A stretch of DNA of 64,000 nucleotides, taken from the NCBI RefSeq assembly GCF_902497775.2, contig NZ_OZ024668.1, forward strand, positions 2,627,826 to 2,691,825, in the 5' to 3' direction. Below the pieces are notes generated by a model, which was given only the letters and a program-made list of their open reading frames with translations, did no database searches and was not told the origin of the DNA. The DNA is from Pseudomonas fluorescens (GTDB lineage: Bacteria; Pseudomonadota; Gammaproteobacteria; Pseudomonadales; Pseudomonadaceae). The position numbers were made by a program, and so were the translations under genes. Position 1 is the stretch's first letter, and the number at the start of each line of letters is the position of its first letter. Positions 7,341 to 19,196 of the stretch are shown in pieces.

Positions 7341-8156
7341 ATGCCCAACAGCAACATTGGCAATAAGAATCAAACCTCTCGCAAACCCGTCGTGCTGATG
7401 ACCATGGGCTCCCAGGAGCGCAAAGGCCACGACTATCAGGTAATGACCCACAAATACATCGTACCGCTGGTTGAACACGCCGGTTGCGTACCTGTGCTGG
7501 TGCCGACCTGCTGCGGTACCGACGACCTCGAAGCCTACCTGGACATGGCCGACGGTGTTTACCTGACCGGCGCCGGCAGCAACATCGACCCGGCCCTGTA
7601 CGGCCAGGAAAACGAAACCCCGGGCAAGGCCCAGGACCGCAACCGCGACCTGTTCGACCTGCCGCTGGTGCAACTGGCCATCGCCCGTGGCCTGCCGATC
7701 TTCGGCATTTGCCGTGGCATGCAGGAAATCAACGTGGCCCTGGGTGGCGACATCTACCAGAAGGTCTACGCCGAACCTGGCTTCAACGACCACCGGGAAA
7801 ACCCGGATGATCCTGTCGATGTTCAGTACAGCGCTGTTCACAGCGTCAAACTGGCGCAAGGCAGCTGGCTGCACAAGCTGTTGCAGAGCGATGAAATCCG
7901 CGTCAACTCGCTGCACGGCCAGGGCCTGAAAAACCTCGGCGAAGGCATCGAACCCCTGGCCCGCGCCGAAGATGGCCTGGTCGAAGCCATCCACGCCCCG
8001 AGCCTGTCGCCGTTCCTCTTCGCGGTGCAATGGCACCCGGAATGGCAAGCGGCGAAAAACCCCGACTCGGTGAAGATGTTCCAGGCCTTCGGCGAAGCCT
8101 GCCGCAAGCAGGCTGCCAAGGGTCAGGTGGTAAAGAAGCTGGGTACGGCTGCCTGA
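7341..8156 (+). CDS. Gamma-glutamyl-GABA hydrolase-like class I glutamine amidotransferase (PuuD/SpuA family)
   Basis: 271 residues, peptidase C26 family. The nucleophile elbow IFGICRGMQEINVALGG contains the catalytic Cys; the His-x-Glu pair is in FAVQWHPEWQA. PuuD hydrolyses gamma-glutamyl-gamma-aminobutyrate in putrescine degradation; the Pseudomonas homologue SpuA sits in polyamine operons. Here it is alone, without the glutamylpolyamine synthetase or aminotransferase, so it may be an accessory copy. It is followed by a hairpin terminator. Confidence 0.8.
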   Translation: MPNSNIGNKNQTSRKPVVLMTMGSQERKGHDYQVMTHKYIVPLVEHAGCVPVLVPTCCGTDDLEAYLDMADGVYLTGAGSNIDPALYGQENETPGKAQDRNRDLFDLPLVQLAIARGLPIFGICRGMQEINVALGGDIYQKVYAEPGFNDHRENPDDPVDVQYSAVHSVKLAQGSWLHKLLQSDEIRVNSLHGQGLKNLGEGIEPLARAEDGLVEAIHAPSLSPFLFAVQWHPEWQAAKNPDSVKMFQAFGEACRKQAAKGQVVKKLGTAA

Positions 8157-8163
8157 TTGTTGA

Positions 8164-8202
8164 TTGAACTGGTTCCTTCGTGATTCCTTGGGACCAGTTC
8201 AA
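8164..8202. terminator. Hairpin terminator between convergent genes
   Basis: TTGAACTGGT at 8164-8173 pairs perfectly with ACCAGTTCAA at 8193-8202; three more inner pairs (TCC with GGG) extend the stem. It lies between the PuuD-like gene and the minus-strand transporter and could stop both. Confidence 0.6.
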
Positions 8203-8203
8203 A

Positions 8204-9127
8204 TCACTGCTGACACATTTTTTTCATCGCTGGCATGGCCACCAGCAGTGCCAATAGTATCCAGACAAACACTATAACTGTCGCGACGGTAACGTTGATC
8301 GGCTGCTTGTACACGACTACAGCCAGTACGAACTGAGTGGTTGGTAACAGAAACTGGAATGCGCTCATTGTCGTCAACGCTAAGTGTTTGGCCGAAAAAG
8401 CGATCAGCAGTAAAGGCAAGACCGACACGAACCCGGCAAGTAGCAGGATAATCGACGTCGACTGAGGCAACGTCCTAGGTAGTGCCATATCCCACGAAGT
8501 AAAAAACATCGCTCCGAGACAGATCAGTGATAACAGTAACGTTTCCAGCGTAGTGCCACAAAAGGCATCAATCATCGAAAACCTTTTCAGACACACATAC
8601 CCGCCCCACGTAAGTGCTATCGCCAGATAGATGCCAGTATTCAGCCCCTCTGCGTACACCACCAAATAGACCAGTGCGATGCCAATCAGGAGAAAGGCAA
8701 CGGAGTGCAGCCTGCTTAATCGCTCGCTCAGCATCAACACGCTGGCCGCTACCGTGATGCAGGGAGCGATCAAGTACCCCAGACCAGACTCCAGAACGTA
8801 GCCCTGGATGGAGGCGTAAATAAATACTCCCCAGTTCGTCGCCAGGAGTAATCCAGCTACCCCGTGAACGACCACACTCTTGGGCGTTAAATTCCGGTAG
8901 AGCGTAATCAGCTTGCCCAGTACCACCAGCACCAGCATCAACACAGCCAGCGAAAGGAACACCCGGTACGCAACGAGCACCAAGGGTGAAATTTCCCGCA
9001 GCGCCTTCCAGTACAGTGCCGACCCTCCCAACCAGATATTGGCGCCCACCCCAGCGATGATCGCAAGTAAGTTGCTGTTGCCTATTAGCTGCTTAGACTT
9101 TGTCGTTACGGACTCTAAAGGCGACAT
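8204..9127 (-). CDS. EamA/RarD-like drug/metabolite transporter
   Basis: 307 residues with ten predicted membrane segments in two EamA halves. The first half ends with YVLESGLGYLIAPCITVAAS, like the SxLGYxxxP motif of RarD proteins. Base composition is visibly lower in GC than in the neighbours and codon choice is more relaxed (many AT-ending codons), which suggests acquisition by transfer. No clear ribosome site precedes the ATG at 9127. Substrate unknown. Confidence 0.75.
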   Translation of the reverse strand: MSPLESVTTKSKQLIGNSNLLAIIAGVGANIWLGGSALYWKALREISPLVLVAYRVFLSLAVLMLVLVVLGKLITLYRNLTPKSVVVHGVAGLLLATNWGVFIYASIQGYVLESGLGYLIAPCITVAASVLMLSERLSRLHSVAFLLIGIALVYLVVYAEGLNTGIYLAIALTWGGYVCLKRFSMIDAFCGTTLETLLLSLICLGAMFFTSWDMALPRTLPQSTSIILLLAGFVSVLPLLLIAFSAKHLALTTMSAFQFLLPTTQFVLAVVVYKQPINVTVATVIVFVWILLALLVAMPAMKKMCQQ

Positions 9128-10230: not shown

Positions 10231-10875
10231 TCAACGGTAGACACCTGGCTGCACCTTCCACTGTGCCCAGCGGATCGTCGGATCCATGGGAAAACGCTTG
10301 AGAATGCGTTTTTCACCTCGGCGCTTGAGTTCAGCGTTGTCAGCCCAGGCTTTCCAGCCACCGGCATGAACGCCGGTATAGATCGTAGTAACCGTAGCGA
10401 AGTCAATCCTGAAATCCTTCATGCACAGTTTGAGGATCTCATCGCAAGCGTCCCGTTCAAGGGATTGGTCCCAATACAGATAGTCATGAATAACCGCTGC
10501 ATACGCATAAAGACCGTCCGGTCGCAGGAGTGAATAAAACTCCCTGGGAATACTGGCAAAATCAGTCACAAAACCGACAGGCACTTCGACCGCCTCATGC
10601 TTGCCGATTTCGCCCCGCCCAGGCCTCCAGCCGATGGGCTCCCTCAGGTAGTACACTGGGTCGGCGAATCGCCCAATGAACAACGGCCCCACCGGTACCT
10701 GCTCACCAGTGGGCGAGCGTTTACCAGCTTCGTTCATCCACTGACGCATCCACTCATCAGCCACTCCCTGATCCGCATAGTCCACCGCTGTGTCGGCTTT
10801 CCTCGCTGTGCAGGCAAGCATCGGCATGATCAGGGCGCCGCCAAGACACGCCAGTGTTGTACGTCGGGTCATCAT
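10231..10875 (-). CDS. DUF1353 putative lipoprotein, last gene of exported-protease operon
   Basis: 214 residues from the ATG at 10875, which has AGAGG about 6 bases upstream; a longer frame from 10932 would overlap the previous gene. The N-terminus (RR pair, then TLACLGGALIMPMLACT) looks like a lipoprotein or Tat-like signal with a Cys at the cleavage point. The body has the DUF1353 signature: VPVGFVTDFASIPREFYSLL and AYAAVIHDYLYWDQ. DUF1353 is found mainly in phages and scattered bacteria; its function is not known to me. It follows three secreted proteases with a 16-base gap, so it may be a substrate, inhibitor or surface partner for them. Confidence 0.7.
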   Translation of the reverse strand: MMTRRTTLACLGGALIMPMLACTARKADTAVDYADQGVADEWMRQWMNEAGKRSPTGEQVPVGPLFIGRFADPVYYLREPIGWRPGRGEIGKHEAVEVPVGFVTDFASIPREFYSLLRPDGLYAYAAVIHDYLYWDQSLERDACDEILKLCMKDFRIDFATVTTIYTGVHAGGWKAWADNAELKRRGEKRILKRFPMDPTIRWAQWKVQPGVYR

Positions 10876-10891
10876 TTCATTTCCCTCTGCG

Positions 10892-11590
10892 TTATGGGCT
10901 TGGGTGCACAGCTGAAACCACAGGTGCCCCATAGACTGTCCGCACGGATGCTATGTCCAGCTGGCTGAGTTTTCCGTCTCCAATCCAAACCGGATTGCAA
11001 TAGTTCATGATCGACGATGGGTCATAGCGAGTGACCAGGTAGTCGCCACGGATCCCCTGCGAATCGGCCTTGCACTCTTCAGGAGCATCCGGTCGGTTCT
11101 GCTCATGGGTAAAGCCAATGGCATGGCCGAACTCATGTACCGCGATGGCCGCCACACAAAATTCCAGTTGCCAGTGACAGGAAGGTCTCCAGCGTTCGGG
11201 GCGAAAGTTGAGCACCATGCCGTCCTGCATCTGATCCAGGTATCTGCCTACTCGCTTGGTATGGGGGTGATCCTCAGCAACTCTGATATGTATGCCCGGA
11301 CTGGCAGCCTGGCAGGCTTGCCAGCCCTCGAAATGCAACGCACTGTTACGCTGCCAGGTGTCTTCAACGGCACGTTTGACCACTTCCCGCAACTGCCTGT
11401 CCGTACTTTGGGAGCTCTCCCAGCACACCGCGATGGTTGTGCCGGGCCACTTGCTCAATCGCACTATGGTGCCGAAGTCCTGCTCTATGATCTTTCCTGC
11501 GGGTAAAGCCGGCTGAGCGAGCGCTGCGCCTGTCTGGTTCAGCAGAACAACACTCAGACCTATCGCAACCCCGGCCATGCGACTCAACAT
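10892..11590 (-). CDS. Secreted astacin-like metzincin zinc metalloprotease
   Basis: 232 residues with a signal peptide ending in GAALA-QP. The metzincin zinc motif is complete: HEFGHAIGFTHE (residues 152-163), with three His ligands, catalytic Glu and the extra Glu typical of astacins. A Met-turn SIMNY follows at 193-197, whose Tyr can be the fifth zinc ligand. The pro-region is very short and there are about eight cysteines in the mature part, suggesting disulfides. The start overlaps the stop of the upstream peptidase gene by 7 bases. Predicted to be a secreted or periplasmic endopeptidase; the substrate is unknown. Confidence 0.8.
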   Translation of the reverse strand: MLSRMAGVAIGLSVVLLNQTGAALAQPALPAGKIIEQDFGTIVRLSKWPGTTIAVCWESSQSTDRQLREVVKRAVEDTWQRNSALHFEGWQACQAASPGIHIRVAEDHPHTKRVGRYLDQMQDGMVLNFRPERWRPSCHWQLEFCVAAIAVHEFGHAIGFTHEQNRPDAPEECKADSQGIRGDYLVTRYDPSSIMNYCNPVWIGDGKLSQLDIASVRTVYGAPVVSAVHPSP

Positions 11591-12537
11591 GGCGAGAGCT
11601 CTTCGTCGCTCTCGGCAATAAATTGCTCGGCGCGTTTCTGCACGTCGATGAACTGCTGGATAATCTGCAGAATCTCGGGGTTGACGTTAGGTTGGCGCGC
11701 CAGCACCCCGGAGGTTCGATCCAGGACCCGGATGTAGCGCAAGATCGAAACCGGATGCTCCGATAGCCGTTGCGAGAGCATTTCGCTGCGCGCAATGTTC
11801 CCCGGGTCGGGGTCTACGGGCTCTGGCAACCACATGTTGGCCATCGATAGAACAATCGCCGAATCCCCAAGGCTGGCCAGGGCATCGACCGCGAAATCAT
11901 CGGCTTCGTACTCCATAGCCCGATACAGTGCCTTGATGCGCAGATAGTCGCACTGGTGTTGCGGGGTCGCGACATCAGGTGGTAAAGGCACGCGATAGTG
12001 GTTGTGATATTGGTGTCCGAGTTCATGCAGATAAGCAAACTCAAGCGTCGCATCAAGCTCTTGTTCGGCCCGGGCCTCTTGAAGCGCACCAAGCGGCAAG
12101 CGTGCCCGCATCGCGCTGCAATCGGCGCCTGTCTGTTCAAGGTACTTCTCAGGAACCGTGCGCGACCCAGTCCTATCCATGTGCTTGCGGTAGCGAGCGA
12201 TGCAGTTGAGCTCCCCACTTTGGGTAGCCAGGGTTGCCATGCGAGCCAGGTTTATAGTCCTGGCAACAAAAGCGTCAGGAATCTCAACTTTGCGCCCTTG
12301 AGCGTTATAGATCGAGTTTGGCTCACTGCTGGAATTGACTGAAATCACCCACTCGACCTGGCTTGCGATGTCTTTGAGCGCTGCAGTCCCTTGGCTCTGA
12401 ATCTTGTCGTGCAAACGGGCCAGCCTATCCGTGCTGTGTTCGACGCGAATCGCTTGCTTCGACCAGTCCTGCGCAACAGCCTGCGTCGCGGCGATCACGC
12501 TCAACAGAATCAGCAGCACTCGTGGTCCCCTGTTCAT
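11584..12537 (-). CDS. Exported HEXXH zinc peptidase (gluzincin/M48-like)
   Basis: 317 residues with a signal peptide (LLILLSVIAATQAVAQ). HELGH at 171-175 and EYEADDFAVDAL at 209-220 provide the three zinc ligands and catalytic Glu in the M48-like arrangement (HExxH then ExxxD). No transmembrane helix beyond the signal is visible, so it is a soluble exported enzyme, unlike HtpX. The gene starts in an ATGA overlap with the serine protease and ends overlapping the metzincin, so expression of the three is coupled. I cannot assign a named subfamily. Confidence 0.7.
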   Translation of the reverse strand: MNRGPRVLLILLSVIAATQAVAQDWSKQAIRVEHSTDRLARLHDKIQSQGTAALKDIASQVEWVISVNSSSEPNSIYNAQGRKVEIPDAFVARTINLARMATLATQSGELNCIARYRKHMDRTGSRTVPEKYLEQTGADCSAMRARLPLGALQEARAEQELDATLEFAYLHELGHQYHNHYRVPLPPDVATPQHQCDYLRIKALYRAMEYEADDFAVDALASLGDSAIVLSMANMWLPEPVDPDPGNIARSEMLSQRLSEHPVSILRYIRVLDRTSGVLARQPNVNPEILQIIQQFIDVQKRAEQFIAESDEELSPC

Positions 12538-13637
12538 TTCGCCACCGGCGACTGGAGCCGGGCAACTGACCCCATTGCCGTCGGGATCTGATCCAACACT
12601 ACCCGTCCGACCACCCGTCGTGCTTTACCTGGCTCTTGTGCACCTACAGGCTTGAGATCCAGCGTGGCATAAGTTCCCGATTCGCTGGCAGTGCACCAGA
12701 CTTCAGCCCCCTCAACCGACACACCTTCAAACTTGCAACGAGTAATTCTATAGTTGTCGCTGGCGCTGAACTTGCGTGGTGTCGGTAACGGCGAACCATC
12801 CTTCCAGTTCAGCGCAACCGGCAGGGCCAGCGTCAATGGCGTGGGCTTGTCGATGGGCGCCAGTGGATCGCTGCCAAGGCCGAACGATCCGTCAGCGTTC
12901 ATGGCGACCGCGCGCAAGCACCTGACATCCTCCTGCTCTTCCAGCACGCGTTTACCGACCTGGCTCTGCTGGAAGCGGATGGAAGGTACGAACTGCGCAA
13001 TACCTTGCACGTTACTGGTTTGCTCACCTACCTGGAAGCCAGTTACAGCGCCTTTGACAATCCCGACCAGATAGCCGCCACTGGTAAAGCCTGGCCCTCC
13101 ACTGTTGCCGACATTCAAATTGGCGTCGGTTTGCCATAACGCAAGCGTCGGATCGGCATTGATCGAAAGGATGCCGACTGATATGCGCAGCACGTCATCG
13201 ATAGGGAATCCCAGAAAAAACAGGTCAGCCCCCGGGCGGACTGCGTTGGAATCCGTGACCAGAAAGTACGGACAACCGGCTTCTACAGGCAGACCGTCGA
13301 CCTTTAGCAGGGCAACATCCACATCCGTGTCGGTAATTTCCAGGTGAGCCGAGTAGGGATTGGTATTACGCGACTCCAAACGTACATTGATCTGCACAGA
13401 GTCATAGTTACCGATCGAACTAAACAAGTGGGCATTGGTGACAACGTAAGGTTGCGCCACGCGGAACCCTGAGGCGGCCTGAACCAACTCACTGGTACCG
13501 TTCGCCAACTTTCCAATTACTTCGACATGCACTATTTTTTGATGATGAGCATCCCATATCAACGTGGCTTCACTGCCGGCAACACACCACGCGGGAAGAA
13601 ATAAGAACAGCATACCCAATACCATCAGGCAGCGCAT
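12534..13637 (-). CDS. Exported trypsin-like (S1/DegP-type) serine protease
   Basis: 367 residues from the ATG at 13637, which has GGGGTG eight bases upstream; a GTG at 13646 is an alternative. Signal peptide MRCLMVLGMLFLFLPAWCVA. The catalytic triad reads VVTNAHLF (His70), DVDVALLKV (Asp107) and TDANLNVGNSGGPGF (Ser179), very like the DegP/Do protease core. There is no PDZ domain; instead a C-terminal region of roughly 130 residues with several Cys pairs (YRITRCKFEG, AEVWCTASES) replaces it. It is the second gene of the exported operon. Confidence 0.8.
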   Translation of the reverse strand: MRCLMVLGMLFLFLPAWCVAGSEATLIWDAHHQKIVHVEVIGKLANGTSELVQAASGFRVAQPYVVTNAHLFSSIGNYDSVQINVRLESRNTNPYSAHLEITDTDVDVALLKVDGLPVEAGCPYFLVTDSNAVRPGADLFFLGFPIDDVLRISVGILSINADPTLALWQTDANLNVGNSGGPGFTSGGYLVGIVKGAVTGFQVGEQTSNVQGIAQFVPSIRFQQSQVGKRVLEEQEDVRCLRAVAMNADGSFGLGSDPLAPIDKPTPLTLALPVALNWKDGSPLPTPRKFSASDNYRITRCKFEGVSVEGAEVWCTASESGTYATLDLKPVGAQEPGKARRVVGRVVLDQIPTAMGSVARLQSPVAK

Positions 13638-13650
13638 ATTTAACACCCCG

Positions 13651-14007
13651 TTATTGAGGGCCTGGCGACCAGAACATACTCAACTTTCCGCTGGGTGCCT
13701 TGATCGCCAGCCACAGCATCTTGCCATTGGCGTGAGTGGCCTGGTAGACCTCGGCCGAACCTGAGGGCGTATCTTCATTACCTTTGAACTCGACGCTGGC
13801 CAACGGGCCCAACTGGGATAAAGCCTGCGTCATGCGATCTATCTGGCCCTCACAGCTTGCCTTTACCATGGTACTCAATACCTCCGAACATTCACCTTGC
13901 ATCGCCGCTTCTATGGCTTCGCGAACTTGGCCTTCAAGGTGCTCAGCCCGGGCCAACGAAGTCATCGCAAGCAGCATCGCACAGGTCACTCCGACAGCAA
14001 GTTTCAT
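13651..14007 (-). CDS. Small exported protein with one cysteine pair, first gene of protease operon
   Basis: 118 residues, starting at 14007 behind a strong GGAGGG site. A signal peptide (MKLAVGVTCAMLLAMTSLARA) precedes a helical region with two cysteines (GECSEV, KASCEG) and a C-terminal beta-like part (GKMLWLAIKAPSGKLSMFW). Unrecognised. It ends 13 bases before the serine protease start. Because it is small, exported and first in an operon of proteases, it could be an inhibitor, chaperone or adaptor, but that is inference. Confidence 0.65.
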   Translation of the reverse strand: MKLAVGVTCAMLLAMTSLARAEHLEGQVREAIEAAMQGECSEVLSTMVKASCEGQIDRMTQALSQLGPLASVEFKGNEDTPSGSAEVYQATHANGKMLWLAIKAPSGKLSMFWSPGPQ

Positions 14008-14139: not shown

Positions 14140-14291
14140 TATTTTTTCCTTATTGTTTTTCGAATAAACGCCAACCTCTATATAGCGGCAGGTTGCCAAC
14201 CCCGTGCGGCCTGTGCTTCCAAATTGAAACAGGATTAGCCCAGCCCTGGGTTTGATCACGCTCACGTAGGCAGAACGCCCTTTGCCTCGCT

Positions 14292-14690
14292 ATGCTGCAA
14301 GGCATGAACGCCACCCTGCCCACCCGCACCCCCTGCCCGCCCGGCGCCTGCGATTGCGGCCGCGAGACGCTGCAGGACCCGCGCATCCTGCTGCTGACCC
14401 GCCAGGAAGAAAAGCGCCTGCTCGAACGCCTGGAAAACCTGCAGAGCCTGGCGGACCTGGAGCACATGCAACGACGCTTGTATGAGCAGTTGGGCATTCG
14501 CGTGCAGATCACCCCGAGCTTCAATGAAGTGCGGACCATACGTGGCATCAATATTCAAATCGAGGACCTGCCGGGCTTGTGTCGCAAGACCCGGCAGAAT
14601 ATTCCGGCGGCGATCCGGCGGGCGCTGGAGAAGCAACCGGAGATTGCCTACCGGCTGCTCGATGCCCATGACCTGTTGCGCGATGCCTGA
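14292..14690 (+). CDS. Conserved-looking hypothetical protein with N-terminal Cys cluster
   Basis: 132 residues (128 if the second ATG at 14304 is used; neither has a clear ribosome site). The N-terminus has CPPGACDCGRE, a compact three-cysteine cluster that could bind a metal. The rest is helical, with charged stretches (RQEEKRLLERLENLQSLADLEHMQRRLYEQLG) and a short conserved-looking block EVRTIRGINIQIEDLPGLC. I believe similar small proteins occur across Pseudomonas but know no function. Confidence 0.6.
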   Translation: MLQGMNATLPTRTPCPPGACDCGRETLQDPRILLLTRQEEKRLLERLENLQSLADLEHMQRRLYEQLGIRVQITPSFNEVRTIRGINIQIEDLPGLCRKTRQNIPAAIRRALEKQPEIAYRLLDAHDLLRDA

Positions 14691-14718
14691 CACAGCAGCG
14701 CGGCAAGCTGACTGCGAC

Positions 14719-15663
14719 CTAAATATCCCGGCCGATAAAACGGTCCGGATCCTCCGCCGCCACCCGCCGCCACTTCAGCAAGCGCCCGTCGATCGCCGCC
14801 AACCCCAGGGCAATCAGCCCCATACCGATAAAGTGCCTGGTCTCCAGACGCTCCCCCAGCACCAGCACGCCAAGCACGATGGCACTGAGCGGAATCAGGA
14901 AGGTCACCAGCATCAGGTTGGTCGCCCCGGCCGTGGCCAAGATACGAAAGAACACCACATAGGCCAGCGCGGTGGAAAGCAACACCAAACCGGCCACCGC
15001 CGCCCAGGTTGTCAGGCTTCGCGCGGCCAGCTTCCAGGGTAGGTCGATCAGCAACGCCAGCGGCACCAACAAGACGGCCGACGCACTGATCTGTCCGGCG
15101 GCAGTGATCAGCGGCGCCACCCCCATGACCTTGAAGCGCCGCCCGTAAACCCCGGCCACGGCGTATGACAAGGCCGCCGCCAACACTGCCAGTTGTGCCC
15201 ACAGGTTGCCGTCCAGGCCGGACCAAGCCGCCGAGCCAATCATGATCGCCACTCCGACAAAGCCCAGCGCAACACCGGCCAGCTTGTTGACGCTGATGTT
15301 TTCGTCCTCGGTCAGCAGGTGCGCAACGATCACCGCAAACAGCGGCGTGGTGGCATTGAGGATCGAGGCCAGGCCGCTGCCGATGCGGGCCTGGCCCCAG
15401 ACGATCAGGCAGAATGGCAACAGGTTGTTGAGCAGCCCCATGGCCAAAAACGCCCGCCAGATCCGCCACTCTCGCGGCATGTACAGCCCCAGCAGCCGTA
15501 CCAGCGCAAGCAGTACCAGCGCCGCCAGCCCCACGCGCAGCATCACCAGGGTGAAAGGCGGCAGTTCCTTCACGGCAATACCATTGAAGAAGAACGAACC
15601 ACCCCACAGTAGCGACAGGGCAATCAACAGGCCCCACTCCCTCAGGCTCATGACTTTGTTCAT
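14719..15663 (-). CDS. EamA-family DMT exporter
   Basis: 314 residues, ten membrane segments in two EamA repeats; motifs LLWGGSFFFNGIAVKELPPFTLVMLRV and SILNATTPLFAVIVAHLL in repeat one, LLSTALAYVVFFRILATAGATNLMLVTFLIPLSAI in repeat two. GAGGAG lies 9 bases before the ATG at 15663. It is transcribed divergently from a LysR-type gene, a common arrangement in which LysR controls an exporter. The substrate may be an amino acid or metabolite. Confidence 0.85.
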   Translation of the reverse strand: MNKVMSLREWGLLIALSLLWGGSFFFNGIAVKELPPFTLVMLRVGLAALVLLALVRLLGLYMPREWRIWRAFLAMGLLNNLLPFCLIVWGQARIGSGLASILNATTPLFAVIVAHLLTEDENISVNKLAGVALGFVGVAIMIGSAAWSGLDGNLWAQLAVLAAALSYAVAGVYGRRFKVMGVAPLITAAGQISASAVLLVPLALLIDLPWKLAARSLTTWAAVAGLVLLSTALAYVVFFRILATAGATNLMLVTFLIPLSAIVLGVLVLGERLETRHFIGMGLIALGLAAIDGRLLKWRRVAAEDPDRFIGRDI

Positions 15664-15813
15664 CGTGGCTAACTCCTCAAACGGGCGATCGAGATTGAGC
15701 TCTGCTAAGGTCAATTGGCAGCCTCTGGAGCCCTTCAATGCCAGTATTCATGGGCACCAGCACCACGACAAACGAGCATTTTTCGCCAGATGATTGAGGT
15801 GAACTAAAGCATC

Positions 15814-16682
15814 ATGACCCTCCCCTCACTCAGCGCCTTGCGCGCCTTCGAAGCCGCCGCCCGGCATGTCAGTATCACCCTTGCCGCCCGCGAGTTGTGC
15901 GTCACCCCCGGTGCGGTCAGCCTGCAGATCAAGGAACTGGAAGCGGCCCTGGGCGTGCAGTTGTTCGTCCGCCGCCCGCGCAGCCTCAGCCTCACCCCGG
16001 AGGGCGAGGACTACTTCGCGACCCTGCGCAGCGCCTTTCGCATGATTCGTGAGGCCACCAGTGCCCTCACTGCTCGCGCCAGACAACAGGTACTGACGCT
16101 CAGTTGCACACCCGGGTTTGCCGTTCAGTGGCTGCTGCCACGGCTAGGCGGTTTCGAGGCGCAGCAGAGCGGTGTCGATGTACGCATCAGCGCCTGCAAG
16201 CGCCTGGTGGATTTCGCCCGCGACGGCATCGACCTGGCGGTGCGTCATGGCTATGGCCGCTATGACGGGCTGGTCGCCGAACGCTTGCTGGATGATGATC
16301 TGGTGCCGGTGTGCAGCCCGCACTTGCGCAACATCCACGCCCTGCACAACCCGGCGACCTTGCCAGCGTGCACCTGCTGCACGATGAGCACCGCCACGAC
16401 TGGCGGATGTGGCTGGATGCAGCCGGGGCGCCACAGGTGGAGGCCAGTGGCGGTACCTTGTTCGTAGACAGCAACGGCGCGATTGAAGCGGCCAAGGCGG
16501 GGCTGGGCGTGGCGCTGGTGCGCCGCGGCTTTGTGCAGCGGGAGCTGGATGAAGGCATGCTGGTGACGCCCTTTGCACAGGGCATCGCCAGTGAGCTGGC
16601 GTATTACCTGGTGTACCCGGCGACGGCACTGGAACGGCCGCAGGTGGCCGGGTTTCGTCAGTGGTTGCTGGCTTGTCGCTAG
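15814..16682 (+). pseudogene. LysR-family regulator (GcvA-like), interrupted by a 1-base deletion
   Basis: The helix-turn-helix is intact (LSALRAFEAAARHVSITLAARELCVTPGAVSLQIKELE), and the effector domain continues to about residue 180 (PVCSPHLRNIHALHNPA). At about 16356 the reading frame must shift: restoring one G in GGCGAC gives the continuous product NPADLASVHLLHDEHRHDWRMWL, and that frame then runs to a TAG at 16680-16682. Without the shift translation ends at 16467 with nonsense sequence. Total restored length (about 289 residues) is normal for GcvA-like LysR proteins. It is either a recent pseudogene or a sequencing error. Confidence 0.8.
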
Positions 16683-16721
16683 CAGGGATTGCTTTGCAGC
16701 CCATCGCCGGGCAAGTCGGTC

Positions 16722-19196
16722 TTACCAGTTATAGGTCAGGTCAGTGGTAATGGTCCGCCCTTCGCCGTAGTAGCAATCCACGTCACTGGTGCAACGGCTG
16801 ACATACACCTTGTCTTCCAGGTTCTGCAGGTTGACCTGCAACTTCACCCCTTTCAGGCGCAATGGCGACTGCTGCAAGTCGTAGGAGACCATGCCGTCGT
16901 ACACGGTGTAGGACGGGATGCTGAAGTGGCCATCTGCAAAATCGGTGCCGTCACTGCCGCGCACATAACGTGCACCCAACCCCATGCCCAGGCCGGCAAT
17001 CGGGGTATCACCGGTGAAGTGATAGTCCAGCCACAGCGATGCGGTCATCGGCGGGGTGCCCGACGGATGACGACCTTCACGGCCATCGTTGTCCTTGGTG
17101 TAAACCACGTCGTTGTGCGATACCGAAGCGATCAGGCCCAGGTTATCGGTGAGGTTGGCCTTGCCTTCAAGCTCGACGCCGCGCGAGCGCAGTTCGCCGA
17201 CCTGGCTGTTGAAGCCGGGGTTGCCGACGTCGGCGGTGAGGATGTTCTGCTGGTTGATCTCGTACACCGACAACTGAATGAAGCTGTCCTGGCCAGGCGG
17301 TTGGTACTTGATACCCGCCTCGACCTGCTTGCCGGTGGACGGCTCGAACGCCTTGCCCGCGTAGTCGGCACCGCTCAGCGGCAGGAACGACTCGGAGTAG
17401 CTGACATAAGGCGTCACGCCATTGTCGAAGGCATAGCCAAGCCCCGCGCGGCCGGTGAACTTCTCGTCCTTGACGGTGGTATGGGTGCCAGCGATCGGCT
17501 CCTTGTTATCGGCCTCGGCCCAGTCGTAGCGGCCACCGAGGGTCAGGAACCAGTTGTCCCACTTGAGCTGATCCTGCACGTACAGGCCGGTCTGATTGAT
17601 GGTGCGGTCCCACTTGAACGGCTGGCCGAAGTTCATTGGCTTGCCGTACACCGGGTTGTACAGGTCGATGACCGGCGGATTGCGGTCGTACAGGCCGAGG
17701 AATTTGGAGTTGGAGTGGTAGTAATCAACGCCGATCAACAGGGTGTGGGCGACGTCGAAAGTGTTGAACTTGGCCTGGGCCATGTTATCGATGCCAAACA
17801 CCTTGTTGCGCTGGGCCCAGTCGACCCCGAAGCGGGTCATGGCGCTCTGGTCGTCGGCCCCGGTGACCGGGTTGGGCACGAAGGCGTAGCCGTGCAGCGG
17901 CGCCCGGTATTTGTCATCGACGTAGGCGTAGCGGGTGTTCTGCTTGAGGGTCCAGACGTCGTCCAGCTCATGACTGACTTCATAGCCAAAGGTGTACTGC
18001 TCGCGATCGTAGGAGTTGACCCCCGGCTCGCCGATGAATCGGCTGCGCTTGATCCGCCCATTGGGGCTGGCAAACACCGTGCCCACCGCCGGCAGGCCCT
18101 GGGCTTCCGGCACACCGTTGTCGCGCTGGTAGTGGCCGTAAACGGTCAGGCGCGTCTGCTCGTTGGGGCTCCAGGTCAGGCTCGGGGCGATCATGTAGCG
18201 CTGCTGTTCGACGTAGTCGGCCTCGCCGTTCTTGTCCAGGCCCATGCCGGTCACGCGGTACTGGTACTCGCCCTGGTCATCCACCGGGCCGGCAAAATCG
18301 AACGCGCCGTAACGCCGGTCCTGGCTGCCGCCACCGAGTTTGACTTCATGCAGCGGCGTCGCGGTCGGGCGCTTGGAGACCATGTTGATCAGGCCGCCTG
18401 GCTGGTTCTGGCCATAGAGCACCGAGGCCGGGCCCTTCATCACCTCGATACGTTCCAGCGCGTACGGATCGATCTGCAGCGCACCGCCAGTACTGCCGCC
18501 GCCATAAGGCAGGTGCAGGCCGTCCAGGTACAGCGGCGTCGGGCTGAAGCCGCGGGAGGTCGGCTCGTCGAAGATCCCGACCCGGTCGGAGAAACCACCC
18601 CCGGTGATACCCGGGGTGTAGCGCAGGGCCTGGGTGACCGTCTGCGAGCCAAGCGCCTTGATTTCATCCTGGGTGATGACGTTGATGGTCTGCGGCACCT
18701 CCAGCACCGAAGTGTCGGTCTTGGTCGCGGTGCCGGTGCGCTTGGCCACATAGCCCTGGACTGGGCCCCAGGCATCTTCGCTGGCGTTGGAAACGATCTG
18801 GGTCAGGCCCAGCTCCAGCGCCCCGCTCTGCTCGGCCGGCACCAGGTTCCAGGTGCCGTTGGCGGTGATGTTGAGGTTAAGACCGCTGCCATTGAGCGCC
18901 TGGGTGGCGGCCTGCTCGGGGCTGAACTGGCCGCTGACCGTAGCCGAGCGCTTACCCTGCACCAGCGCTGGCTTGACCGACAGCACCCGACCAGACTGAC
19001 GGGCGATGCGGCTCAGGGCTTCGCCCAAGTCACCGGCCGGGACATCAAAGCGTTGGCTGGCGCTGACGCTGCTGTCGGTTTGTGCCAGGGCGTACAGCGG
19101 TGCGCTGCTGCCCAGGGCGATGGCGAGGGCCAGCAGGCTGGGGCGGATCATGGAGTCGGGCATGGAGGTGTTGGCTCGTTGAAGGTTGTTGTCCAT
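16722..19196 (-). CDS. TonB-dependent siderophore receptor with N-terminal signalling (STN) domain
   Basis: 824 residues. A signal peptide ends near YALAQ, followed by the secretin/TonB signalling domain (QRFDVPAGDLGEALSRIARQSGRVL), a TonB-box/plug region (VPQTINVITQDEI, GSQTVTQALRYTPGI, RIEVMKGPASVLYGQNQPGGLINMVSKRP) and a 22-strand barrel ending in aromatic YNW. The final part (RCTSDVDCYYGEGRTITTDLTYNW-like region) has a Cys pair typical of ferrichrome/ferrioxamine-type receptors. The STN domain means it passes a ligand signal to the FecR-type protein encoded just upstream. Ligand specificity is inferred, not shown. An alternative start is 19163. Confidence 0.9.
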   Translation of the reverse strand: MDNNLQRANTSMPDSMIRPSLLALAIALGSSAPLYALAQTDSSVSASQRFDVPAGDLGEALSRIARQSGRVLSVKPALVQGKRSATVSGQFSPEQAATQALNGSGLNLNITANGTWNLVPAEQSGALELGLTQIVSNASEDAWGPVQGYVAKRTGTATKTDTSVLEVPQTINVITQDEIKALGSQTVTQALRYTPGITGGGFSDRVGIFDEPTSRGFSPTPLYLDGLHLPYGGGSTGGALQIDPYALERIEVMKGPASVLYGQNQPGGLINMVSKRPTATPLHEVKLGGGSQDRRYGAFDFAGPVDDQGEYQYRVTGMGLDKNGEADYVEQQRYMIAPSLTWSPNEQTRLTVYGHYQRDNGVPEAQGLPAVGTVFASPNGRIKRSRFIGEPGVNSYDREQYTFGYEVSHELDDVWTLKQNTRYAYVDDKYRAPLHGYAFVPNPVTGADDQSAMTRFGVDWAQRNKVFGIDNMAQAKFNTFDVAHTLLIGVDYYHSNSKFLGLYDRNPPVIDLYNPVYGKPMNFGQPFKWDRTINQTGLYVQDQLKWDNWFLTLGGRYDWAEADNKEPIAGTHTTVKDEKFTGRAGLGYAFDNGVTPYVSYSESFLPLSGADYAGKAFEPSTGKQVEAGIKYQPPGQDSFIQLSVYEINQQNILTADVGNPGFNSQVGELRSRGVELEGKANLTDNLGLIASVSHNDVVYTKDNDGREGRHPSGTPPMTASLWLDYHFTGDTPIAGLGMGLGARYVRGSDGTDFADGHFSIPSYTVYDGMVSYDLQQSPLRLKGVKLQVNLQNLEDKVYVSRCTSDVDCYYGEGRTITTDLTYNW

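Follow-up and report, generated by a model that had tools for sequence, protein, structure and literature searches.

What would a pseudomonad do with an operon in which every product looks destined for export, three are peptidases of unrelated types and a fourth belongs to the DUF1353 family? The question is raised by five minus-strand genes, here called A to E, in a 64,000-nucleotide stretch of a Pseudomonas fluorescens genome (the window; G000:C1:2627826-2691825, part of a one-contig 5.97-Mb genome), which an earlier reading of the DNA letters (the original prediction) had singled out. We find that the block is real, acquired and recurrent, and that it represents a new form of the multi-peptidase systems used in conflict or attack, its predicted effector being the DUF1353 protein E.

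Layout of the five-gene block

The five genes form an operon-like unit on one strand (Table 1). Inspection of the open reading frames (ORFs) gave the same tight spacing as the original prediction: a 13-nucleotide gap between A and B, overlaps of 4 nucleotides between B and C and 7 between C and D, and a 16-nucleotide gap between D and E. All five products had also been credited with signal peptides, and signal-like N-termini are indeed present in 5/5 by a home-made heuristic; because this heuristic is not SignalP and also flags the neighbouring membrane protein at 8204-9127, we treat it as supportive only. The guanine-cytosine (GC) fraction of the five genes is 0.556-0.572, whereas 51/64 one-kb stretches of the window reach at least 0.60. 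The claim that the genes are poorer in GC than their flanks stands against most of the window, but the low-GC stretch, at about 7 to 15 kb, takes in flanking genes. A promoter and terminator scan stayed at chance level, and no NCBIfam model reaches its cut-off in a scan of A to E.

Table 1. Features of the locus (window coordinates)
Feature	Position	Strand	Description
Gene A	13651-14007	-	118 aa, small exported-looking protein
Gene B	12534-13637	-	367 aa from ATG, exported-looking trypsin-like serine protease
Gene C	11584-12537	-	317 aa, exported-looking M48-like zinc peptidase
Gene D	10892-11590	-	232 aa, exported-looking astacin-like metzincin
Gene E	10231-10875	-	214 aa, DUF1353 protein that starts with a Tat-like signal; predicted to be an exported phospholipase A2 and possibly a lipoprotein
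Acquired segment	10183-14286	.	absent from sister genome G007 (blastn vs L005 and L047)

Protein E is a predicted phospholipase A2

E matches PF07087 (DUF1353) with 67.1 bits against a curated cut-off of 22.5 (E-value 1.1e-18). The family is no longer merely one without a function: in 2024 one member, TtaP, was shown to be a phospholipase A2 (PLA2; PMC11525133), so the membrane is a likely substrate of a DUF1353 protein. The TtaP dyad is H70/D85, D71 is also important and the D85A mutation kills activity (PMC11525133). E carries the catalytic-type residues H129, D130 and D144 at the spacing found in TtaP. Given this likeness and the conservation of these residues, E is predicted to be a PLA2 that is exported and possibly lipid-anchored.

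At an E-value of at most 0.001 we found 1043 relatives of E, and examined the best 120 clusters, E's own included. The His-Asp pair with an Asp at +15 is kept in 120/120, and an Arg-Arg pair within the first 25 residues, as in twin-arginine translocation (Tat) signals, is present in 105/120; when E is aligned with 49 of these clusters, R4, W41, W45, H129, D130 and D144 are invariant. The original prediction would have been undermined by dead active sites in most homologues. The residues are kept in the aligned homologues, but the DUF1353 protein of Sinorhizobium sojae lacks the second Asp, which is kept in 7/8 rows of a distant alignment of plasmid relatives, S. sojae having His. The N-terminus of E, MMTRRTTLACLGG, has a Tat-like start and, by the lipobox rule, a possible non-canonical lipobox, MLAC; the lipobox is clearer in the relatives P0014, P0031 and P0037 than in E itself.

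An AlphaFold model of E has a predicted local distance difference test (pLDDT) score of 83 and a predicted template modelling (pTM) score of 0.76. Compared with phospholipase folds (three-helix core as in 1LWB), the model had no PLA2 among its 36 Foldseek matches, a second aligner run over 408 chains returned no phospholipase, and a profile search with E found no solved relative.

We also considered whether E is simply a phage gene, and rejected this. Phage-type DUF1353 proteins score apart from the E type in hidden Markov model (HMM) searches (E-values of at least 4e-40 vs at most 6e-55), mostly have no signal (signal-like N-termini in 15/78 by the heuristic) and have other neighbours.

The peptidases B, C and D and the small protein A

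The catalytic motifs of all three peptidases are present at the positions that the original prediction gave. In B, the triad H70, D107 and S179 is intact and the protein matches PF13365 (Trypsin_2) over its cut-off (E-value 5.9e-15). The trypsin domain is thus sound, but the label "DegP-like" does not hold: because the Pfam scan found no PDZ match and the NCBIfam DegP/HtrA cut-offs are missed (for the Do family, 54 bits against a threshold of 416.2), we reject B as a member of that family. Among 72,556 plasmid records it is best matched by the trypsins adjoining a D homologue in Bradyrhizobium (8 records). All four Cys of mature B, two of them in the C-terminal region, align with Cys of the Bradyrhizobium trypsin, with weak C-terminal similarity (E-value 0.007).

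C carries HELGH at 171-175, EYEAD at 209-213 and four conserved Cys. It is rare, with 8 clusters among 5.8 billion proteins, its own included, and HELGHQ and E[YF]EAD are present in all of them. The proposal of a zinc peptidase agrees with the intact, M48-like motifs, HExxH followed downstream by ExxxD, but the Pfam score falls just below the cut-off (PF01435, Peptidase_M48; 18.9 vs 20.3 bits, E-value 0.0015); 8/8 members of the C alignment match PF01435 at an E-value of at most 1, the best at 6.3e-5.

The signature of astacins is HExxHxxGxxHE together with a Met-turn containing Tyr. D has the zinc motif HEFGHAIGFTHE at 152-163 and the Met-turn SIMNY at 193-197, and in its aligned set the zinc motif is found in 8/8 and a Met-turn of the form S-[IVE]-M-N-Y in 8/8. 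It exceeds the Pfam cut-offs for both Astacin (31.5 vs 22.5 bits, E-value 1.7e-7) and Matrixin, in agreement with the proposed astacin-like metzincin. A profile search puts myroilysin first among its solved relatives, the nearest of which are astacins and collagenases that are secreted.

A is rarer still, with 3 clusters among the same 5.8 billion proteins, its own included. Two Cys in its mature part, C40 and C52, are invariant in 3/3 clusters. No Pfam or NCBIfam model matches A at an E-value of at most 1, and its structure model (pLDDT 52.6) is too poor for use. We regard A as a candidate inhibitor or regulator.

Recurrence of A, C and E in environmental DNA

The concern that the five genes merely coincide at this locus proved mostly unfounded; A, C and E, at least, turn up again on shared environmental contigs. 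Three pairs of C and E clusters have longest contigs of exactly equal length: P0002/P0013 (4411), P0004/P0037 (7814) and P0006/P0031 (9962). Such coincidences thus involve 3/7 C clusters other than the window's own, where a rough density model expects about 0.05 (P ~2e-5). In addition, A cluster P0011 and E cluster P0014 have a common 7051-bp longest contig from a compost metagenome, on which A bears the tag D9M68_336580 and E the tag D9M68_336620. Locus tags by convention step by ten; if these do, three genes lie between A and E, as in the window. No C cluster with a 7051-bp longest contig was found among the 8 C clusters. Because C and E clusters share three exact lengths and A and E carry tags 336580 and 336620 on one contig, the five-gene combination is unlikely to be a coincidence.

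Related cassettes on plasmids and viral contigs

We located the named plasmid relatives by tblastn. On a Bradyrhizobium guangxiense plasmid, one of eight similar Bradyrhizobium records, genes for a lipoprotein-like protein, a metzincin, a trypsin and an alpha/beta hydrolase lie on one strand; the trypsin was reached from B independently of D. In S. sojae, a subtilase, a DUF1353 protein and a metzincin are encoded side by side. On an S. terangae plasmid the metzincin gene overlaps a trypsin-like gene (B match, E-value 4e-13), and a few kb from the metzincin, on the opposite strand, a signal-bearing caspase-GH25 lysozyme fusion is encoded (L048 12-1943). Rhizobium leguminosarum has an M23 peptidase, a metzincin, a small lipoprotein-like ORF and a CHAT protein, with a caspase further upstream.

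Metzincin adjoins trypsin not only on two rhizobial plasmid lineages but also in a phage contig (L148 7333-10204), where a 199-aa exported-looking protein, a metzincin and a trypsin lie between head genes and tail terminator; this protease block is at a typical cargo position. In all, metzincin is present on two viral contigs, one of them with trypsin.

DUF1353 genes of the E type adjoin a caspase in four other loci (L051, L054, L055 and L068), with lysozyme or peptidoglycan-binding proteins nearby in L055 and L054. The E-type gene of B. barranii has as its partner a gene on the opposite strand for a caspase protein that looks exported; R. ruizarguesonis and S. fredii (L054/L055) combine E-type DUF1353, caspases and a peptidoglycan-binding or lysozyme protein, the DUF1353 and caspase proteins having no signal by the heuristic; and a contig from IMG/VR carries CotH, an exported-looking caspase and an E-type DUF1353 protein. 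Two genes from the S. fredii DUF1353 gene is a signal-bearing 710-aa protein with no Pfam match (L055 1692-3824), whose CATHDYCY stretch is reminiscent of PLA2 active sites.

Partners were scored, here and below, with home-made HMMs. Such a partner is present at 6/15 metzincin loci (the weak L124 not counted) and missing at nine: three in Caballeronia, and those in Nostoc, G247, G408, G237, G684 and L149. The E-type genes of Methylobacterium, Methylorubrum and L069, the last ending at a contig end, have no such partner either, and neither do two lipoprotein-like DUF1353 genes that gave partial matches, that of G983 (the second E-type match of the genus in the counts below) and that of G616 (the one E-type match of the G237 class). 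Because the parts are rare, whole genomes gave few co-occurrence matches: for C, 1/115 relatives, its own copy; for D, 4/398 of the phylum and 2/398 of the genus (own included in both) and 2/385 of the G237 class; and for the E type, 2/249 of the genus (own included) and 1/289 of the G237 class. C had no relatives in IMG/VR, and D and E found nothing in an annotated phage collection at the thresholds used.

A distant, exported-looking C relative (25.6% identity over 63%, with HELSH and EKEAD) is encoded at L034 5563-6519 on a 108-kb Klebsiella plasmid, one of four such records, which also carries dnaE- and exonuclease-like genes; in the one record viewed it lies outside any such cassette. A viral scan with this relative returned nothing, and one with the phage-borne trypsin returned its own contig alone.

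Peptidase neighbours of E-type and phage-type DUF1353 genes

As a control, we compared the neighbours of E-type genes with those of 78 phage-type genes, the best 80 of 177 viral relatives minus the E-type L068 and L069. The score limit for the E type was set after the fact, yet falls in a score gap, and a duplicate B. barranii record (L057) was left out of the counts. A peptidase of these kinds is found at 5/8 strong E-type loci (the window, L051, L054, L055 and L068; not L052, L053 or L069) compared with 2/78 phage-type loci (Fisher p 3e-5). Counting L054 and L055 once gives 4/7 (p 2e-4); with L056, L066 and L067 included, which score lower and are not viral, the count becomes 5/11 (p 2e-4), or 4/10 with L054 and L055 counted once (p 1e-3). 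None of the three added loci has a peptidase by our HMMs, although L056 has an annotated serine protease ~4 kb off. The two phage-type exceptions are L124, with a weak metzincin match adjoining the DUF1353 gene, and L130, with a trypsin ~5 kb away.

Because our profiles were seeded partly from these loci, we repeated the control side with Pfam on the 147 nearest neighbours of 77/78 loci (ORFs called by length only; L147 and ORFs >1500 aa left out). The commonest families were lysozyme (5), GH108 (4), its peptidoglycan-binding domain (4) and M15 (3); among the 25/51 families shown, there was no C14, trypsin, S8, astacin or matrixin family with two or more members, a display in which a single trypsin or metzincin could be hidden. 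The peptidoglycan enzymes next to phage-type genes (L070-L146) hint at a phage-lysis role for those DUF1353 proteins.

Acquisition of the block

The original prediction had suspected acquisition, and the block is indeed absent from the sister genome G007 at the same site: by blastn, G007 aligns to the window up to 10182 and again from 14287, with ~105 bp between. The same locus is found in P. wadenswilerensis CCOS 864, a member of the P. putida group that is recorded as a forest-soil isolate. A, B and C are identical in the two, D differs at one residue and E at two. Between 8500 and 18499 the window and CCOS 864 show 0-12 differing bases per 500; outside it they show 14-70, except for 8 in 8000-8499. 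We call a recent shared exchange likely, with uncertain limits, because one section of the right flank (14287-18013) matches G007 as well, at 98% identity. The EamA-like transporter gene at 8204-9127, also missing from G007 and near-identical in CCOS 864, may have been exchanged in the same block. A search for long direct repeats at the ends of the acquired segment found none.

In the same region, the gene for a LysR-type regulator (15814-16682) is apparently split over two overlapping ORFs in different frames, and its alignment to the frame of CCOS 864 breaks into four blocks.

Comparison with known systems

The original prediction knew of no described Pseudomonas system with this combination. 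The occurrence of similar metzincin, trypsin, subtilase, caspase and DUF1353 sets on plasmids and viral contigs supports the idea of a system. DUF1353 itself has a demonstrated PLA2 member. In the open-licence literature, covered mostly as titles and the starts of abstracts, we found no description of such cassettes, the work of Kaur et al. excepted as a concept.

E shares with TtaP its Pfam domain and the His-Asp...Asp spacing, and both are encoded in small gene groups; that of TtaP is an islet with an envelope-acting muramidase (PMC11525133). TtaP, at 125 aa, has no overt signal sequence, whereas E looks exported and has an extra conserved N-terminal segment (W41, W45). In the typhoid toxin islet TtaP accompanies toxin subunits and the muramidase; E accompanies three peptidases, and A to D match no toxin-subunit or muramidase family in Pfam or NCBIfam. 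Among DUF1353-containing proteins, the TtaP authors also note several protease domains and a lysozyme domain (PMC11525133).

The closest concept is System 3 of Kaur et al. (2020, PMC7159879), in which several peptidases accompany a NucA nuclease and a proteolytic cascade is suggested. Both systems bring together peptidases of different clans (trypsin, sometimes subtilisin, in System 3) and a destructive effector. System 3 is mostly alphaproteobacterial and has lysozyme-type partners in some cases; its effector is a nuclease where ours is a predicted phospholipase, its peptidases in several cases have transmembrane segments, and some systems include EAD1 or STAND parts. In contrast, all window products look exported, and no NTPase or nuclease was found among the five. 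Of the System 3 features, several peptidases (B, C and D) are present, and the NucA-type endonuclease core is absent from the five proteins by Pfam; because of this absence, the operon is not a member of System 3.

Group XIV secreted PLA2 enzymes (S. violaceoruber; TbSP1 of Tuber borchii), also have a His/Asp dyad and an N-terminal sequence that is removed (PMC11525133), but a search with the E profile found no sequence similarity to them, and they are not listed among the fold matches. D, for its part, resembles myroilysin and the astacins (M12A) in its zinc motif, HExxHxxGxxHE, and its Met-turn; it differs from them in its 232-aa length, with a short N-terminal stretch, and in its place in a multi-peptidase operon.

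Discussion

With evenly balanced confidence, we propose that the operon is a horizontally acquired member of a set of modular, exported envelope-hydrolase cassettes, in which E is a phospholipase effector and the peptidases process it, activate it or cooperate with it. The analysis establishes the operon-like layout, the export-like signals, the intact motifs, the recurrent association and the acquisition; the enzyme activity of E, the order of activation, the role of A and the target we infer as follows. E, predicted to be Tat-exported and possibly lipid-anchored, would be the membrane-active effector, a PLA2 that frees fatty acids and lysophospholipids. B, C and D would be exported peptidases that activate each other, E or both, or that work beside E by stripping proteins from the envelope. 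The product of the first gene, A, may be an inhibitor or trigger and would keep the set quiet in the producer, and the conserved extra N-terminal segment of E is a possible regulated part. The authors of the TtaP study argue for an enzyme that is kept inactive or spatially restricted until needed (PMC11525133); in the operon, the peptidases would be the obvious candidates for holding the phospholipase in check. The set might act on neighbours after release, a type II secretion gspD being present, on predators or phage-infected siblings, or on the producer's own envelope. The common target is most likely the cell envelope, because the products look exported, one is predicted to cut lipids and three to cut proteins, and some relatives add peptidoglycan enzymes. 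What weighs against this proposal is that C, D and E types are found at loci lacking such partners as well; for that reason we see the unit as modular rather than fixed.

Somewhat unlikely, to our minds, is a secreted degradative arsenal aimed at eukaryotes (amoebae, fungi, nematodes, plant tissue) or dead matter, sent out by type II export and with each enzyme working alone rather than in a cascade. The export-like signals on 5/5 products would suit it, as would a type II secretion GspD over its cut-off in the genome with a weak GspL match ~5 kb away, the secreted astacins and collagenases closest to D, and the many plasmid relatives that come from root nodules or other plant material. It is harder to reconcile with a lipid anchor on E, possible though non-canonical here and more evident in P0014, P0031 and P0037, with E-type DUF1353 beside caspases and lysozyme, with metzincin on viral contigs, once together with trypsin, and with the signal-less proteins of L054/L055.

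A bolder version of our own proposal, which we think distinctly improbable, is an envelope-located killing cascade independent of nucleoside triphosphates (NTPs), in which exported peptidases of interchangeable clans (caspase, trypsin, subtilisin, astacin, M48-like), triggered by damage or a foreign protein, would cut the conserved Trp-containing N-terminal segment off an exported DUF1353 zymogen and so free a membrane-destroying PLA2. Such a cascade would correspond, in the bacterial periplasm, to death pathways in which proteases activate pores or lipases.

The small numbers of peptidoglycan enzymes that are commonest next to phage-type DUF1353 genes (lysozyme 5, GH108 4, M15 3, among 147 neighbours) lend something to the idea of a lysis or release module akin to the typhoid toxin islet and phage lysis cassettes, in which E would loosen the outer membrane for cargo release or vesicles while the peptidases clear the envelope. 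The TtaP authors lean towards a part in toxin secretion, with vesicles also considered, but report seeing no secretion or vesicle phenotype (PMC11525133). Among the five operon proteins there is no peptidoglycan hydrolase by Pfam, nor any obvious cargo beyond the enzymes themselves, and we think such a module quite doubtful.

An envelope-localised anti-phage defence, with proteases that sense or cut incoming phage proteins and a phospholipase that kills or seals the infected cell, seems to us very doubtful. Its mobile distribution and phage-like carrier, and the mix-and-match protease/effector design known from conflict systems, would fit, and in PADLOC B weakly resembles RT-protease and C weakly resembles capP; A, D and E, however, match no PADLOC model at an E-value of at most 0.1, no sensor domain is recognised and everything looks exported. 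That unrelated exported housekeeping or quality-control proteins share one transcript by chance is scarcely credible: C, D and E types do occur in other settings, but the same rare proteins recur together on the same contigs, and the same protease and DUF1353 types are found together in unrelated replicons.

To return to the modular envelope-hydrolase cassettes, DUF1353 is widespread, with 1043 relatives of E alone, and had one member shown to be a PLA2 in 2024. Through the operon and its relatives, a DUF1353 subfamily of exported, Tat-type proteins is linked, on mobile DNA, with peptidases from several clans, and similar mix-and-match blocks suggest an undescribed weapon or self-destruct kit directed against cell envelopes. 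What is gained is a concrete hypothesis, a protease-controlled phospholipase in the envelope; if it is true, an exported lipid-cutting branch would be added to the multi-peptidase conflict systems described with other effectors.

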